This document shows, one piece after another, positions 5,999-20,554 of a stretch of DNA of 21,555 nt; position 1 is the first letter of the stretch; each line of letters starts with the position of its first letter. Where the stretch lies: IMG/VR virus record IMGVR_UViG_3300009374_000044, positions 1-21,555 of that record; one strand, written 5' to 3'. This stretch comes from a virus. Position numbers and translations under genes: made by a program. Under the pieces are notes generated by a model, which saw nothing but the letters and a program-made list of their open reading frames with translations, was not told the origin of the DNA and ran no database searches.

Positions 5999-6849
5999 GT
6001 GAAAATTATGAAAGAGTAGATTTCAAATCTACTTATGGAGTGGTTCCATATTCTATTTGGGAAAGTGAAGACCCAAAATATTCAAACCCCATTCTAAAGC
6101 ACCTTAAAGAAAGGCAAGGTGAATCCACTAGAGAAAATACTCTCAAGAGTTTTGGTGGGGCTGGTGAGAATACAACCTATACTGCAACTACAAGTTACTT
6201 CAATCCGAAACTTTGCAAGATAATTTATTCATCCTATTGTCCAAAGAATGGAACTATCTTTGACCCATTTAGTTCTGTAGTTCGTCCTTACATGGCAAAG
6301 TTATTGGACTATAACTATGTTGGGTGTGAAGTGAGAAAAGATGAGTGTGACAAGATTGACGAGATACTGAATACCAATTCTCTGTTTGAGGAAAGTGATG
6401 TTAGGGTATTGAATATTGATTGTAGAGAGTTTGAGACAGAACAAAAGTTTGATTTGGTTTTTACTTGTCCACCATATTGGAATCTGGAAACATATTCTGA
6501 ACAGGACAATGACCTAAGCTCTATTTCAAACTATTCTGATTTCTTCACAGAGATGAGTAAAGTTTACTCAAAGTGTTCATCTCTAATGCATAGTGAATCT
6601 TATTGTTGTTTTGTAGTTGCTGACTTCAGAGATTATTCTGAGGGTCGTAAGTTGATAAATCGTTTGGTTCCCTTTGTTTCGGATATGATTCGGTGTGGAG
6701 AAGATTCTGGTTTGAGTTTATACGATAAGGTCATAATTAAGAAACCAATGGGAACGGCTCCTTCCAGATTGAAACTCTGGAACAACAGAAAGACAGTCAG
6801 GATACACGAAGAACTTCTAGTTTTTAGAAAAAAACTTGACATCCGATAG
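5995..6849 (+). CDS. DNA methyltransferase with degenerate SAM motif (284 aa)
   Basis: Motif I region IFDPFSSVVRPYMA (~88-101) precedes motif IV TCPPYWNLETYS (~157-168), so the order is I then IV, unlike the other methyltransferase here. The stretch after motif IV (SISNYSDFF, then CCFVVADFRD) matches phage-type DNA amino-methyltransferases with a CPPY motif. The usual FxGxG of motif I is replaced by SSVV, although the DPF start and the later VGCEV acid are kept, so activity may be altered. The ATG at 5995 overlaps the previous stop (ATGA) and gives the family-like N-terminus GVVPYSIWE; a longer frame from 5938 is an overlap artefact. No partner nuclease is adjacent, so it is probably an orphan methyltransferase for self-protection or regulation. 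Confidence 0.8.
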   Translation: MSENYERVDFKSTYGVVPYSIWESEDPKYSNPILKHLKERQGESTRENTLKSFGGAGENTTYTATTSYFNPKLCKIIYSSYCPKNGTIFDPFSSVVRPYMAKLLDYNYVGCEVRKDECDKIDEILNTNSLFEESDVRVLNIDCREFETEQKFDLVFTCPPYWNLETYSEQDNDLSSISNYSDFFTEMSKVYSKCSSLMHSESYCCFVVADFRDYSEGRKLINRLVPFVSDMIRCGEDSGLSLYDKVIIKKPMGTAPSRLKLWNNRKTVRIHEELLVFRKKLDIR

Positions 6850-6864
6850 AAAAATTGGTATTAT
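6836..6864 (+). promoter_or_regulatory. Sigma70-type promoter P4
   Basis: TTGACA (6836-6841), 17 bases, TATTAT (6859-6864), with an upstream A-tract (AAAAAAAC). It lies inside the 3' end of the methyltransferase gene. The downstream leader GTGAGTTGATGATAATAATCC and CTTTTCGGAGATTG leads to the ATG at 6908. Confidence 0.82.
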
Positions 6865-6907
6865 ATAAATGTGAGTTGATGATAATAATCCTTTTCGGAG
6901 ATTGAAT

Positions 6908-7665: not shown

Positions 7666-7674
7666 AAAAATAAT

Positions 7675-7703
7675 TTGACATTCAATGAATTTTTTGATAT
7701 AGT
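7675..7703 (+). promoter_or_regulatory. Sigma70-type promoter P5 with conserved leader
   Basis: TTGACA (7675-7680), 17 bases, TATAGT (7698-7703), ten bases after the tRNA. The leader (GTGAGTGAGA, then AACCCCTTTGGAGATTTGAT) is nearly the same as that of P2, ending at the ATG 7745. Confidence 0.85.
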
Positions 7704-7744
7704 ATAAGTGAGTGAGATTGAGATAACCCCTTTGGAGATTTGAT

Positions 7745-9280: not shown

Positions 9281-9479
9281 AAAACATCAATATACAGTTG
9301 AATTACTGTTTCATTTCAATTGTGGGACTTGTGAGAATTGGTGGAGTTATGCCTCCACTCCTTATTGTTTGACTGGAAGTATTGAATACAATTCTCTTCC
9401 AGAACATATTGATTATTACTGCCCTCATTGTGGTGCAGCCGAAAAGGTTGAGATAAAAAGTGGATTTGAAAAAACTTGA
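9270..9479 (+). CDS. Zinc-ribbon protein (69 aa)
   Basis: Two cysteine knuckles, FNCGTCENWW and YYCPHCGA, separated by ~35 residues make a four-Cys zinc ribbon. Such proteins bind nucleic acids or act as protein adaptors. The ATG lies inside the end of the previous gene, so translation is coupled. Its TGA stop is embedded in the -35 box of the next promoter (TTGACA at 9476). Confidence 0.65.
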   Translation: MKNKKHQYTVELLFHFNCGTCENWWSYASTPYCLTGSIEYNSLPEHIDYYCPHCGAAEKVEIKSGFEKT

Positions 9480-9504
9480 CATTGAAGTTATACTTTGGTA
9501 TTAT
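9476..9504 (+). promoter_or_regulatory. Sigma70-type promoter P6
   Basis: TTGACA (9476-9481), 17 bases, TATTAT (9499-9504), preceded by GAAAAAAC. The leader GTGAGTTAAGTGATTTGATG, then AACC and TTGAGATTGATT, leads to the ATG at 9554. The core is the same as P4. Confidence 0.82.
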
Positions 9505-9553
9505 ATAACTGTGAGTTAAGTGATTTGATGATAACCTTTTATTGAGATTGATT

Positions 9554-11672: not shown

Positions 11673-11678
11673 AGAAAT

Positions 11679-11814
11679 AAGAGTGTTGTGAGTGGGAGTC
11701 GTGAAGCTGACTACTTTGCACCATCTCACCCGGCGGAATTAGTCAGTCGCTTAGATTTTCGTACAAAGGTAAATCAATTTTAAATTGATGTATGGAAACT
11801 TGCACTCTTTTTTT
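11679..11814 (+). ncRNA. Candidate structured RNA with terminal T-run
   Basis: No convincing coding frame spans this stretch. The ends pair: AAGAGTG (11679-11685) with CACTCTT (11803-11809), directly followed by TTTTT, like a terminator closing a large domain. Inside, CTGACTA (11707-11713) pairs with TAGTCAG (11740-11746), GTGAG (11688-11692) with CTCAC (11725-11729) in crossing (pseudoknot) order, and ATCAATTT (11773-11780) with AAATTGAT (11782-11789). It matches no RNA family I recognise. It may instead be only the 3' leader and terminator of the lipoprotein gene. Confidence 0.35.
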
Positions 11815-11824
11815 ATATTTAATT

Positions 11825-11868
11825 CGTTATTATTAAAACAAGTACATACACATTTAATAACAATAACG
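11825..11868. terminator. Hairpin between convergent transcripts
   Basis: CGTTATT (11825-11831) pairs with AATAACG (11862-11868) and ATTAAA (11832-11837) with TTTAAT (11853-11858), leaving a three-base bulge. It begins right after the T-run of the + strand unit and touches the stop codon of the minus-strand gene (11871-11869), so it may end that transcript. Confidence 0.4.
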
Positions 11869-12015
11869 CTACTTCAAACATTGTTCCTTCCTCAAGTGTT
11901 CCTCTATATGTTCTTCTAATTTTTGAATATCAACAAATATTTCATCACATTCATAACAACAAACAAAATCATATTTGAAATAAAATTCATGGTCGTATTG
12001 TTGTTTTTCTAACAT
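11869..12015 (-). CDS. C2H2 zinc-finger mini-protein (48 aa)
   Basis: On the minus strand an ATG at 12015-12013 opens 48 codons ending in TAG. Residues 20-40 fit the classic C2H2 finger exactly: C-x2-C-x3-F-x5-L-x2-H-x3-H, seen as CYECDEIF then LEEHIEEH. The chance of this full pattern arising in a shadow frame is small. It is the only convincing minus-strand gene in the window. The ribosome-binding site is weak (AAAGAAATCCCTC), and CTAAATAT, a late-promoter-like octamer, lies ~15 bases upstream of the start. It probably binds zinc, and DNA, RNA or a protein partner. Confidence 0.6.
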   Translation of the reverse strand: MLEKQQYDHEFYFKYDFVCCYECDEIFVDIQKLEEHIEEHLRKEQCLK

Positions 12016-12088
12016 GAGGGATTTCTTTTATATTTAGAAAATAATAGAAATCTAATGCTTTCTGAATATTTAAAAAATATATATTTGT

Positions 12089-12571
12089 ATGAAAGTATCA
12101 AAGAAAGCAAAACTCATAAAGAAAGTGCAGAAGATGGAGTTTAATAATCCTGTTATTACGACATTGGCTGGTTTGGTCATATTTTACATTGGTCTGAAAC
12201 TATTTTCGGGTGGCCTAAAGTCAATGGGAAACATAGACCATCTTCAATGGTTTCTTGGAAACCCAATCTATATGTTTTTCGGTGGTATTATCATGACACT
12301 TCTCTGGCAATCCAGTTCTCTTTCCACTACTGCAATCATTGGTCTGGTTGCTAGTGGTGCATTGCCTTTACCCGCTGCAATTGGTGCAGTTCTTGGTGCA
12401 AACATTGGAACCACAGGAACTATTTGGTTGGCCGGAATATTGGTTTCTGATGGTATACCGACAGGTATTACAAAACATATCGCAATGGTTCATACTGGTG
12501 TGAATCTTTTCATGGCAGTTTTACTCCTACCTTTTACTCAACATATTACAAGGTTTGTATCACGATTTTAA
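12089..12571 (+). CDS. Half-length Na+/phosphate cotransporter-like membrane protein
   Basis: 160 residues, mostly hydrophobic. It has both signatures of the Na/Pi-cotransporter (NptA/YjbB) family: TLLWQSSSLSTTA (Gln74-Ser77) and AVLGANIGTTGT (103-110), plus FSGGLKSMG near the N-terminus. Full proteins have two such repeats, each with a QSSS motif, plus a regulatory tail; here only one repeat is present, with ~4 membrane helices. It would need to dimerise to transport, or it modulates the host carrier. The ATG at 12089 has no clear ribosome-binding site; MEFNNP at 12134 is an alternative start. A phage gene for phosphate uptake fits a phosphate-poor ocean. Confidence 0.75.
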   Translation: MKVSKKAKLIKKVQKMEFNNPVITTLAGLVIFYIGLKLFSGGLKSMGNIDHLQWFLGNPIYMFFGGIIMTLLWQSSSLSTTAIIGLVASGALPLPAAIGAVLGANIGTTGTIWLAGILVSDGIPTGITKHIAMVHTGVNLFMAVLLLPFTQHITRFVSRF

Positions 12572-12643: not shown

Positions 12644-12874
12644 ATGATATCTATTCGTGTAAAACCAAATGAAAATATAAATCGAGCCTTGTCTCGTTTT
12701 AAGTCTGCTGTACTAAATGAAGGTATTATCAAGACAGTAAATGATAAATCTCATTTTATAAAACCTTCTCTTAAAAAGAAACTCAAAAGGGAAGCTGCAG
12801 AACGACAACGAATGAAGGATGAAATTAGACTGATTAGGCAGATAGAGAATGAGCAAAAAGAGTGGAGATCCTAA
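12644..12874 (+). CDS. rpsU: Ribosomal protein bS21 homologue
   Basis: 76 residues with the bS21 pattern: ISIRVKPNENINRALSRFK at the start (compare the family's x-V-x-x-x-E-x-x-x-x-A-L-R-R-F-K-R), a middle with FIKPSLKKKLKREAAERQR, and a charged helical tail. bS21 sits on the 30S platform next to the anti-Shine-Dalgarno end of 16S rRNA and helps initiation. Phage copies are known in marine and huge phages and are thought to replace or compete with the host protein to bias translation. Strong start: AAAAAGGAGTTGTT before the ATG. It has its own promoter, P7. It overlaps the next gene by 26 bases. Confidence 0.85.
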   Translation: MISIRVKPNENINRALSRFKSAVLNEGIIKTVNDKSHFIKPSLKKKLKREAAERQRMKDEIRLIRQIENEQKEWRS

Positions 12875-16326: not shown

Positions 16327-16845
16327 GTGGCTGAGTATAAGAATGAAGAACCATGTGAATTTATTTACAACGTAACTGCAATAGAAAAGATTGTTGATGG
16401 AGATACACTTGATGCAGTTATTGATTTGGGATTTGATGTAAGGTTTTGTGGTCGGGTTCGTTTACTTGGAATTGACACTCCCGAATCAAGAACAAGACAT
16501 AAGAACGAAAAAGTTTACGGAAAGTTGTCCAAAAAAGCACTATCATCGTGGATAAATTGGGCAGTCATGGATGATAGAGATGATATAGAAATTCAGGTTA
16601 GATGCCCAGAAGCCGATTCAAGAGGAAAGTTTGGAAGAATTCTGGGAGAAATCTGGGTCAACTGTAACGAAGATGGTCATGAATTTGGTGGTTGGACAAA
16701 TGTAAATAAGTGGATGTGTGAAAATGGTTATGCTGTGGGGTACTGGGGCCAGAACAAAGATGATGTTAAAGACGAGCATTGGAAGAATAGAGAATATCTT
16801 GCAGAACATGGTAAACAGGAATTGTTACAATGGGATGAAGATTAG
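16327..16845 (+). CDS. Staphylococcal nuclease (thermonuclease) homologue
   Basis: 172 residues. VDGDTLDAVID opens the OB-fold; the catalytic set is intact: GRVRLLGIDTPE gives Arg45, Asp50, Glu53 with exactly the spacing of SNase Arg35/Asp40/Glu43, and KFGR gives Arg104 for Arg87. The family cuts DNA and RNA with calcium. Without a signal peptide it would act in the cytoplasm or within the virion. GTG start with GAAAGGATGAA upstream; no in-frame ATG fits. The stop shares a base with the IscU start (TAGTG). It might degrade host nucleic acid or act as a virion nuclease. Confidence 0.85.
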   Translation: MAEYKNEEPCEFIYNVTAIEKIVDGDTLDAVIDLGFDVRFCGRVRLLGIDTPESRTRHKNEKVYGKLSKKALSSWINWAVMDDRDDIEIQVRCPEADSRGKFGRILGEIWVNCNEDGHEFGGWTNVNKWMCENGYAVGYWGQNKDDVKDEHWKNREYLAEHGKQELLQWDED

Positions 16846-17231
16846 TGGCTTATTCAGAAAAGGTAATAGAACACTATGAAAAACCCCGAAATATGGGTTC
16901 TCTTAATCCCACTGATAATAGCGTTGGTACTGGTCTTGTTGGAGCGCCAGCCTGTGGTGATGTAATGAAACTCCAAATCAAGGTTGATGATGAAACAGGA
17001 ATTATTGAAGATGCCAAATTCAAAACTTTTGGTTGCGGTTCAGCCATAGCTGCCAGTTCCCTCGCTACTGAATGGGTTAGGGGCAGAACAGTTGATGACG
17101 CTATGGAGTTATCAAATACGGAAATCGTAGAGGAACTTTCACTTCCACCTGTTAAGATCCATTGTTCGGTTCTTGCAGAAGATGCAATCAAGGCAGCGAT
17201 AAATGACTACAAAGAAAAACAGGGATTTTAA
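16845..17231 (+). CDS. iscU: IscU iron-sulfur cluster scaffold protein
   Basis: 128 residues, the same length as E. coli IscU and very close to it (MAYSEKVIEHYEKPRN; VGAPACGDVMKLQIKV; FGCGSAIAASSL). The three cluster cysteines are present (Cys37, Cys64 and the Cys in KIHCS), as is Asp39. The HscA-chaperone recognition motif LPPVK is intact. IscU assembles [2Fe-2S] clusters with IscS and passes them on via HscA/HscB; no other isc gene is nearby, so it would plug into the host system. GTG start overlapping the nuclease stop. Confidence 0.93.
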   Translation: MAYSEKVIEHYEKPRNMGSLNPTDNSVGTGLVGAPACGDVMKLQIKVDDETGIIEDAKFKTFGCGSAIAASSLATEWVRGRTVDDAMELSNTEIVEELSLPPVKIHCSVLAEDAIKAAINDYKEKQGF

Positions 17232-18402: not shown

Positions 18403-18930
18403 ATGGCCAGCATGAATGCTGCGTTTTGGATCAATCCAACAGGAAAAATTTATAGAGTTGGAAAAAATCATATTTCTGATGTTATTAAATATCCTAAAAA
18501 ATTTGGTTTGACGTTACAAGACATTCAAAAAGTTTTTGATAAACATAATGAACCATTAGGACTTGAAGGGAAAGCAAGAGAAGAAATTTTATTGAATCTT
18601 TTCAAAAAAAATTATATACGTATCCGAAAATACAAGAATTTAGGATATACGGTTAATGTCAAGAAATTGGCCGGAAAGACGAAAAAATATGTGTATGATT
18701 GGGTAGAGAAACTTTTAGGAACTGGTATAGAGGGTGAAAAAGATTATACTACTACACCTGTTTATTTTGATGCTGCAGACAAAAGTTATTCACCAACAAC
18801 TTTGGGGGATATTCAAAAAGATATTTCGGTTATGGAATCGAATCAACACGAACTTGTTGAATGTCATGTTTCACAATGGGAAGATGTAAAAATAAAGAGG
18901 TTTGAGGAATTTATAAATGAAACCATTTAA
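18403..18930 (+). CDS. Conserved T4-like marine phage protein of unknown function (175 aa)
   Basis: ATG with GGAAGGAAATAG upstream. Starts ASMNAAFWINPTGKIYRVG, NHISDVIKYPKKFGLT; a second region reads GKAREEILLNLFKKNYIRIR and KYVYDWVEKLLGTG. I recall this combination (N-A-x-F-W-x-N-P, F-G-L-T, G-K-A-R-E-E-I) in cyanophage and pelagiphage genomes without a known role. The C-terminal end, KRFEEFINETI, resembles the cargo leader motif but at the wrong end. It overlaps the CCA-enzyme gene by 14 bases. Confidence 0.65.
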   Translation: MASMNAAFWINPTGKIYRVGKNHISDVIKYPKKFGLTLQDIQKVFDKHNEPLGLEGKAREEILLNLFKKNYIRIRKYKNLGYTVNVKKLAGKTKKYVYDWVEKLLGTGIEGEKDYTTTPVYFDAADKSYSPTTLGDIQKDISVMESNQHELVECHVSQWEDVKIKRFEEFINETI

Positions 18931-20554
18931 AAAATTCTTATATGAAAGTCAACTCGCAACTGCATTGTCAGTAGATGTTAGGGATGCAATCAAAAACAAG
19001 GGTGGAAAAATTTATCAGATTGGTGGTGCCGTTAGAGATGAGATTCTTGGGAAAGTATCAAAGGATTTAGACCTTCTGATTGTTGGATTAGAATTAAATG
19101 AGTTGGGAAGAATTCTGAAGCCATTCGGCAAGATCAATCTTGTCGGAAAATCTTTTGGTATACTCAAATTTACACCGAAGGGTAGTTCCGAAGAGATTGA
19201 TATTTCTGTCCCAAGAGTGGATTCCAAAAGCACAGGAAAAGGACATAAAGATTTTGAAGTTAAGTTAGGTAAAGGTATTTCTTTACAACAAGATCAATTA
19301 CGAAGAGATTTTTGGATTAATGCACTTGCAAAAGATATTGATACAGGGGAAGTAATAGATGTAGAACGTAAGGGAATGACGGATATCAAAAATAAAGAAA
19401 TCCGTATGATAAGTCCAGTTGCATTTGAAGAAGATCCATTGAGGATGTTACGTGCGGTTCAGTTTGCAGCCCGATTTGGTTTCAAAATAGAGAAAGAAAC
19501 ATTTAAGGAGATACAGAAAAACGCAAGAACAATTTCTACCATTTCTGCTGAGAGATTTCAAGAAGAGTTTCGTAAAATGTTTACTAAAGCAAAGAAACCT
19601 AGTATCGGAATCAAATTGTTATTTGCAACAGGCCTGATGGATTTTATTCTACCACAGTCAAATTTGAGAAATATAGATTTGACTACTATAGATAAACTTG
19701 ACAAGAAAGCGTTCCCTGCATTTATGGGAATAATTTTAAATGGGTATGGTTCAAATGCAGGAAAAGAAATTGCAAGTGTGATGAGATTATCAAATGCAGA
19801 TTCAGATGCAGTTCAGGCAGTAGTTTCATATGCATCTAAAGCATCATTTTTAGATAGAGATGATTTTAAATTAGTCAGGTTTTTAAAGAATGTAAATGAA
19901 AAAGGAATTCAAAATATAGATGCATATTTGTCTGCCAAGAGAAGACCAACTTTGTCAAGCAAACTCAAGAGGATGGAAGTCATTTCTGTCAAAGAATTAT
20001 CAATTGGTGGTAGAGATTTGTTGAAATTAGGAATGAAAGGAAAACAGGTCGGTGATGCACTTGAGTTTGCATTTGAATTTGCAGTTAGAAATGGGAGAAA
20101 CAATAAGTCAGAATTGTTAGATGTTATTAAAAACAAATATGGAATGACAGAACAAGTAGAAATAGAAGATATTTTGAAGTATTATCCAAGTCCTAGAGAA
20201 GTCAAGTATATCAGATCGGTTAGACATAAGTTGATTAAGAAGAATCCAGATATGAAACCGATTGGAGATGACAAGTTACACGTTACGCTTGCATCTGGGC
20301 CTGGGTGGAAAAAGATAAAGTCGGACTTTGGAGATGTGAAATTAAATAATCCAGATTTTCAGTTAGAGTTTGAAGATCCAAAGAAAGTTGAATCATCTGG
20401 TAGAGTTTCGTGGTATATGAAAGTTAAACAACAAAGACAACTCAAGGATTATGTCACAGATTTACTTCAATCAGATCCAGACCCGAAAAGATTGTTTCAT
20501 GTGTCGATTGCAAATAAGACAGGAAAAATAGGAGATTCAGTTGCAAACATTTAA
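18917..20554 (+). CDS. CCA-adding-enzyme homologue fused to a 2H-phosphoesterase-like domain, with leader
   Basis: 545 residues in three parts. (1) Leader MKPFKKFLYESQ with an L-x-E site. (2) Class II nucleotidyltransferase: YQIGGAVRDEILG (36-41 GGxVRD), SKDLDLLIVG (catalytic Asp50, Asp52), QLRRDFWINALAKD, then EEDPLRMLRAVQFAARFGF (~170-188), as in bacterial CCA-adding enzymes and poly(A) polymerases. It adds or repairs the CCA end of tRNA. (3) C-terminal ~110 residues with two H-x-T/S motifs, KLHVTLAS (His455, Thr457) and FHVSIANKTG (His528, Ser530), the mark of 2H phosphoesterases, which open 2',3'-cyclic phosphates. Bacterial CCA enzymes use an HD domain for this instead. The fusion is unusual. 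Whether it adds CCA or poly(A) is not certain. Confidence 0.85.
   Translation: MKPFKKFLYESQLATALSVDVRDAIKNKGGKIYQIGGAVRDEILGKVSKDLDLLIVGLELNELGRILKPFGKINLVGKSFGILKFTPKGSSEEIDISVPRVDSKSTGKGHKDFEVKLGKGISLQQDQLRRDFWINALAKDIDTGEVIDVERKGMTDIKNKEIRMISPVAFEEDPLRMLRAVQFAARFGFKIEKETFKEIQKNARTISTISAERFQEEFRKMFTKAKKPSIGIKLLFATGLMDFILPQSNLRNIDLTTIDKLDKKAFPAFMGIILNGYGSNAGKEIASVMRLSNADSDAVQAVVSYASKASFLDRDDFKLVRFLKNVNEKGIQNIDAYLSAKRRPTLSSKLKRMEVISVKELSIGGRDLLKLGMKGKQVGDALEFAFEFAVRNGRNNKSELLDVIKNKYGMTEQVEIEDILKYYPSPREVKYIRSVRHKLIKKNPDMKPIGDDKLHVTLASGPGWKKIKSDFGDVKLNNPDFQLEFEDPKKVESSGRVSWYMKVKQQRQLKDYVTDLLQSDPDPKRLFHVSIANKTGKIGDSVANI

Follow-up and report, generated by a model that had tools for sequence, protein, structure and literature searches.

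On comparison with its relatives, the minus strand of the window (the whole 21,555-nt stretch of viral DNA analysed here, IMG/VR record IMGVR_UViG_3300009374_000044) carries a real gene for a 48-residue C2H2-type zinc-finger protein, a member of a conserved, as yet unnamed family of small acidic marine-phage proteins. Comparison of contigs shows that conservation acts on the finger as a protein and that many relatives have it as the middle, coupled member of a cassette, between an asparaginyl-tRNA synthetase (AsnRS)-like catalytic core and an unusual tRNA-Asn; in the window, the finger alone remains at the site that the core and the tRNA occupy in relatives. Eukaryotic-type C2H2 fingers are rare in bacterial viruses, and our searches found no characterised phage example. 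The finger described here has a genomic partner that can be tested, namely a phage synthetase core with its own tRNA. It also illustrates that short minus-strand genes in seemingly empty gaps can be verified by cross-contig comparison.

A C2H2-type gene on the minus strand

The gene (11869-12015, minus strand; ATG start, stop codon included) translates to MLEKQQYDHEFYFKYDFVCCYECDEIFVDIQKLEEHIEEHLRKEQCLK followed by a stop. As a first-pass annotation of the sequence had claimed, these 48 residues fit the C2H2 pattern exactly, as C20-x2-C23-x3-F27-x5-L33-x2-H36-x3-H40. The finger proper spans 11896-11958 (minus strand), with ligand codons at 11956-11958 (C20), 11947-11949 (C23), 11908-11910 (H36) and 11896-11898 (H40). 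The C-x2-C-x12-H-x3-H spacing and the Phe and Leu of the hydrophobic core are also kept in homologues. Across all six frames of the window, the exact pattern C-x2-C-x3-F-x5-L-x2-H-x3-H occurs once, and it was matched in 0.3% of 300 dinucleotide shuffles of the window. Taken alone this rarity is suggestive; the comparison with relatives decides.

The gene lies in a gap of 416 bases (11673-12088), one fewer than the 417 first given, and its intergenic position stands. The neighbouring genes run on the plus strand; the region is otherwise one-way, as described. The finger gene had also been called lone, which holds for the window; most related contigs have it second in an operon, together with the AsnRS-like core and tRNA-Asn. 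Elsewhere, the window phage carries a bS21 homologue (12644-12874), a NifU-like scaffold (16845-17231) and a CCA-adding enzyme (18917-20554), as well as a tRNA-Cys.

Relatives and purifying selection

A first scan with the window peptide returned just one near-identical contig (loci L002 and L003), whose DNA is about 99% identical and whose peptide is the same. The ORF itself does not differ between this contig and the window, whereas the 2.3 kb around it has 8 substitutions. Using the neighbouring Na+/Pi-cotransporter-like gene (12089-12571, plus strand; PF02690, E 1.5e-16), a conserved flanking marker, we obtained 80 related loci, and divergent finger relatives were found on the minus strand beside the cotransporter gene in three of them (L004, L031 and L039). 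A four-sequence alignment of fingers then served as the query for the wider family, which comprises relatives in 42 viral contigs and one contig of a metagenome-assembled genome (MAG), mostly 40-60% identical.

Among 25 members, C20, E22, C23, D24, L33 and H36 are invariant and F27 is nearly so. Position 40 is His, or Cys in one clade (L113, L115 and L118). Cys is another zinc ligand, so this exchange keeps the ligand type. In most close pairs pN/pS is 0-0.3, with change mostly at synonymous sites; the pooled value is 0.35 over 311 pairs, of which the distant ones are saturated.

The look for stops and frameshifts in relatives that the first-pass annotation had proposed thus left the gene standing: frame and ligands are kept. 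A chance ORF or non-functional relic would be short, in a gap and lacking close relatives in phage isolates, as this ORF is. Because frame, ligands and synonymous-biased change are kept across dozens of contigs, we take the ORF to be a real gene and find that alternative scarcely credible here; as to the family, it is already refuted. No usable match was found, by DNA or by peptide, in 50,697 phage isolate records. PHROGs gave weak scattered matches, none describing the finger, and an NCBIfam search gave no match. A relative of the upstream 164-aa gene was found only in the near-identical contig.

One full cassette (L125 4026-5201) lies on a contig of 89 kb that was assigned to a Methylophilaceae MAG; this is probably a phage contig, and would then hint at a host. 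In addition, some contigs have an N-terminal extension, IPVYKNGxGIHDLIxELQRQAREL, joined to the finger, and in others the extension stands free without a finger; it was noted at L050 3700-4030 (minus strand), L061 2600-2910 (minus strand) and L084 4905-5126 (plus strand).

Predicted fold and acidic surface

In the AlphaFold2 model of the window finger (mean pLDDT 77), a short helix precedes a hairpin and a long helix (residues 30-47) follows, a predicted standard beta-beta-alpha finger. Its best structural matches in the PDB are C2H2 fingers, with Z about 3, and C2H2 fingers also lead the best 60 of 152 matches in a PDB profile search. By sequence, the protein presumably binds zinc. Prokaryotic zinc fingers of the Ros/MucR type are spaced C-x2-C-x9-H-x3-H; the window finger, with x12 between its Cys and His pairs, lacks this spacing. 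It thus shares exact spacing, predicted fold and profile matches with eukaryotic-type C2H2 fingers (PF00096 and PF13894), but differs from them in being single and acidic, including at base-contact positions, and in missing the Pfam gathering thresholds (18.8 bits for PF13894, where 27 are required, and 17 for PF00096, where 25.2 are). Because of these scores we call it C2H2-type and not a Pfam member. All four members of the four-sequence alignment match PF00096 weakly (best E 6.7e-05).

Net charge across the family ranges from -1 to -13, and is -7 in the window, compared with +10 in Zif268. At the canonical contact positions of the helix (-1, 2, 3 and 6), Asp or Glu prevails across the family; the window has D, Q, K and E there, a less acidic set. 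The family thus lacks the basic surface and the base-reading residues at these positions that mark DNA binding, and binding of DNA or RNA by its members is unlikely. The first-pass annotation had implied a nucleic-acid-binding role, and the charge speaks against it. C2H2 spacing, fold and Pfam similarity do agree with a classical DNA- or RNA-binding regulator, and there is a precedent in AFV1p06 of Acidianus filamentous virus 1, like the window protein a small single-finger protein in a virus of prokaryotes, which binds DNA (PMC3541406). However, the helix face of AFV1p06 is positive, and that protein also has a third strand and, as its putative fourth ligand, a Glu (PMC3541406); we claim no homology between the two. 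The window protein, by contrast, is a single finger of net charge -7 with no basic tail, from a family acidic at its base-contact positions. We therefore consider such a regulator very unlikely.

Since the family is acidic where the helix face of AFV1p06 is positive, we favour docking on a protein over binding of DNA or RNA. Single fingers that act by protein contact are known in the UBZ and NDP52-type proteins, two of which (3wup and 4xkl) are among the top structural matches of the window finger (Z 3.2 and 3.1). These differ in binding ubiquitin, and their Z scores are low, as for any 30 residues, and tied with those of DNA-binding fingers; common ancestry is not implied. Charge and the analogy to such protein-binding fingers suggest a protein-docking role, in which zinc would hold the beta-beta-alpha fold and the acidic face would dock on a protein, not on DNA or RNA.

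A cassette with a synthetase core and tRNA-Asn

In about 27 contigs, the finger gene follows a gene that we call c8 and is itself usually followed by an unusual tRNA-Asn(GUU). The c8 stop and the finger start overlap by 4 nt in many contigs (ATGA, TTGA or GTGA), and a tRNA with anticodon GUU comes after the finger in nearly all c8-linked contigs, overlapping it or within about 100 bases. We found no description of this arrangement in literature searches. The c8 product has about 290 residues and is a class II AsnRS/AspRS-like catalytic core (PF00152, E 9e-19; phrog_29758), found beside tRNA-Asn(GUU) at, for example, L095 2017-3138, L087 4123-5220, L126 2504-3394 and many more places. It retains the class II motifs (R89, E91 and H99; GGGIGxTR) and has no anticodon-binding domain. 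Its model, of low mean pLDDT (58), aligns with AsnRS/AspRS cores (Z about 15.8), and the fit to GenX and to archaeal asparagine synthetase A is almost as good, so that more than one substrate is conceivable.

Most of the cassette tRNAs have U1:A72, G73 and an encoded CCA, like tRNA-Asn. In many of them the variable arm is long, and the D-arm resembles that of class II tRNAs. A correlation of the finger with the long arm was considered and rejected, as both short and long arms occur with it. Possibly c8 and tRNA-Asn(GUU) form a self-contained charging pair. c8 is widespread, with 575 matching stretches, from which 80 loci were retained, and it often has such a tRNA beside it but lacks a finger. 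Among cyanophage isolates, P-SSM7 and P-SSM5 carry a c8 (T4-GC194) annotated as 'tRNA ligase' with tRNA-Asn, and P-SSM2 has the same arrangement by sequence, its record placing the annotated tRNA elsewhere. These share with the cassette a synthetase core beside a like tRNA-Asn, but have no finger gene between the two.

The coupled order, a c8 without an anticodon-binding domain and a tRNA with an unusual body would all suit a finger that recruits the tRNA in trans for c8, with solo copies serving a distant c8 or being relics. Split pyrrolysyl-tRNA synthetase offers a precedent: its tRNA-binding part, PylSn, is a separate small protein encoded beside a class II core and its tRNA (PMC10810272). 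That placement is found in many relatives of the window, not in the window itself. Unlike PylSn, to which we saw no sequence similarity, the finger is acidic, which argues against tRNA binding, and finger and synthetase each occur alone; the N-terminal domain of PylRS is not among the best 60 of 152 PDB profile matches to the finger. Moreover, c8 without a finger is common, including in the three isolates with the tRNA directly after it, the finger accompanies tRNAs of either arm length, and it persists without c8 on contigs of 66 and 124 kb. A tRNA-recruiting subunit is thus a minority possibility.

Fingers without the synthetase

A finger without an adjacent c8 occurs in the window and in about 18 further contigs. 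The two long contigs, L004 (66 kb) and L110 (124 kb), have one finger each and no c8 match anywhere. L004 aligns with L095 in three blocks, namely the promoter and leader up to the c8 start, the finger, and the next gene. The cassette is intact in L095; c8 and the tRNA are missing from L004, where the c8 promoter and leader stand directly before the finger. In L086 c8 is deleted internally; this locus keeps the promoter, about the first 37 c8 codons, the last c8 codons, an intact finger and a tRNA-like sequence. Solo and c8-linked fingers interleave in the tree, with the weak support that 48 residues give. Conversely, c8 and the tRNA occur without a finger in L005, L006, L007 and L009, and L050 and L061 keep only the leader part of the longer finger form.

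The flanks of the window match those of L005 at 86% on the side of the structured RNA described below and at 81% on the cotransporter side, and between these shared flanks L005 carries c8 and the tRNA. The alignments point to loss of the synthetase and retention of the finger, a direction that is clear for L004/L095 and L086 and less so for the window. Because contigs are fragments, the window phage may carry c8 or the tRNA in another part of its genome. As each is kept without the other, the finger and c8 are each of value on their own.

Our preferred reading, held tentatively and at somewhat less than an even chance, is a functional small acidic single-finger gene, formerly of a cassette, that would be transcribed late from the minus strand and whose product would dock on a protein partner. 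Since the finger outlasts c8 and the tRNA, its main partner would probably be a host protein or a conserved phage protein. A partner in translation or tRNA metabolism is the most plausible guess given the synthetase and tRNA association and the bS21 homologue, CCA-adding enzyme and tRNA-Cys of the window phage, and the finger would then aid late phage protein synthesis. A bolder proposal, which we think rather unlikely, is a three-part translation module of marine phages, in which the finger completes or directs an AsnRS-like core and a class II-like tRNA-Asn, and in time turned into an effector of its own, acting on host tRNA charging and left behind in the window.

A putative late-type promoter before the finger gene

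A T4-late-promoter-like element, CTAAATATAAAAG, lies at 12025-12037 on the minus strand, 9 bases before the start codon, with similar elements at relatives. TAAATA-type elements precede 11 solo finger starts (the window and 10 others), and several c8 operons have one as well. In the 60 nt before ORF starts in related loci, TATAAATA was observed 38 times against 4.1 expected, and the control string TATATTTA 7 times against 3.6 expected. In T4-like cyanophages, NATAAATA has been described as the late promoter (PMC2984593). These data support a putative T4-late-type promoter belonging to the window finger itself, from which the gene would be transcribed on the minus strand; the element is probably that of the old operon, and the finger would then be expressed late. 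A second TAAATA-type match, at 11821 (minus strand), is downstream of the finger gene, and we do not take it for the promoter. Five sigma70-type, early promoter-like TTGACAT..TATA elements (2194-2241, 2674-2721, 6829-6876, 7668-7715 and 9469-9516) are all on the plus strand of the window.

A small acidic gene with a late promoter, gained and lost independently of its neighbours, might also encode a counter-defence or host-takeover protein, such as a blocker of a host anticodon nuclease or of some other defence aimed at translation, that rode with the tRNA cassette and was kept once the tRNA was unneeded. Phage tRNAs reportedly help phages to escape retrons and other defences (PMC11555353). We judge this role unlikely, if conceivable.

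A convergent structured RNA

The hairpin noted earlier on the 3' side of the finger gene exists. It had been described as terminator-like, but it is no terminator of that gene and belongs to a convergent structured RNA on the plus strand (11679-11815), a neighbour and not a part of the gene. Stem P1 closes the RNA (11679-11685 with 11803-11809) and is followed by a U-run, which ends the transcript convergent to the finger gene. No Rfam family matches the RNA, a permissive-threshold Rfam scan of the gap giving chance-level matches, and the phage isolates contain no match to it. In related loci we found 25 distinct copies, many facing c8 or a finger gene.

Among 19 sequences, 14 of 23 pairs have changed on both sides. 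The covariation score of 0.324 compares with 0.183 in shuffles, none of 500 being as high, and slid partners score no more than 0.15. Covariation is strong in three stems. The fold of the plus-strand element as a single sequence has a z of just -1.4, so the structure rests on covariation and not on energy. A proposed helix (alignment columns 45-50 with 78-83) crosses two others and would make a pseudoknot. Because its pairs hardly vary, covariation backs the stems and says little on this helix; for a further crossing helix, there are 4.8 Watson-Crick pairs within sequences against 3.5 between them. The RNA is probably pseudoknotted, and as a family of marine phages it is possibly more novel than the finger.
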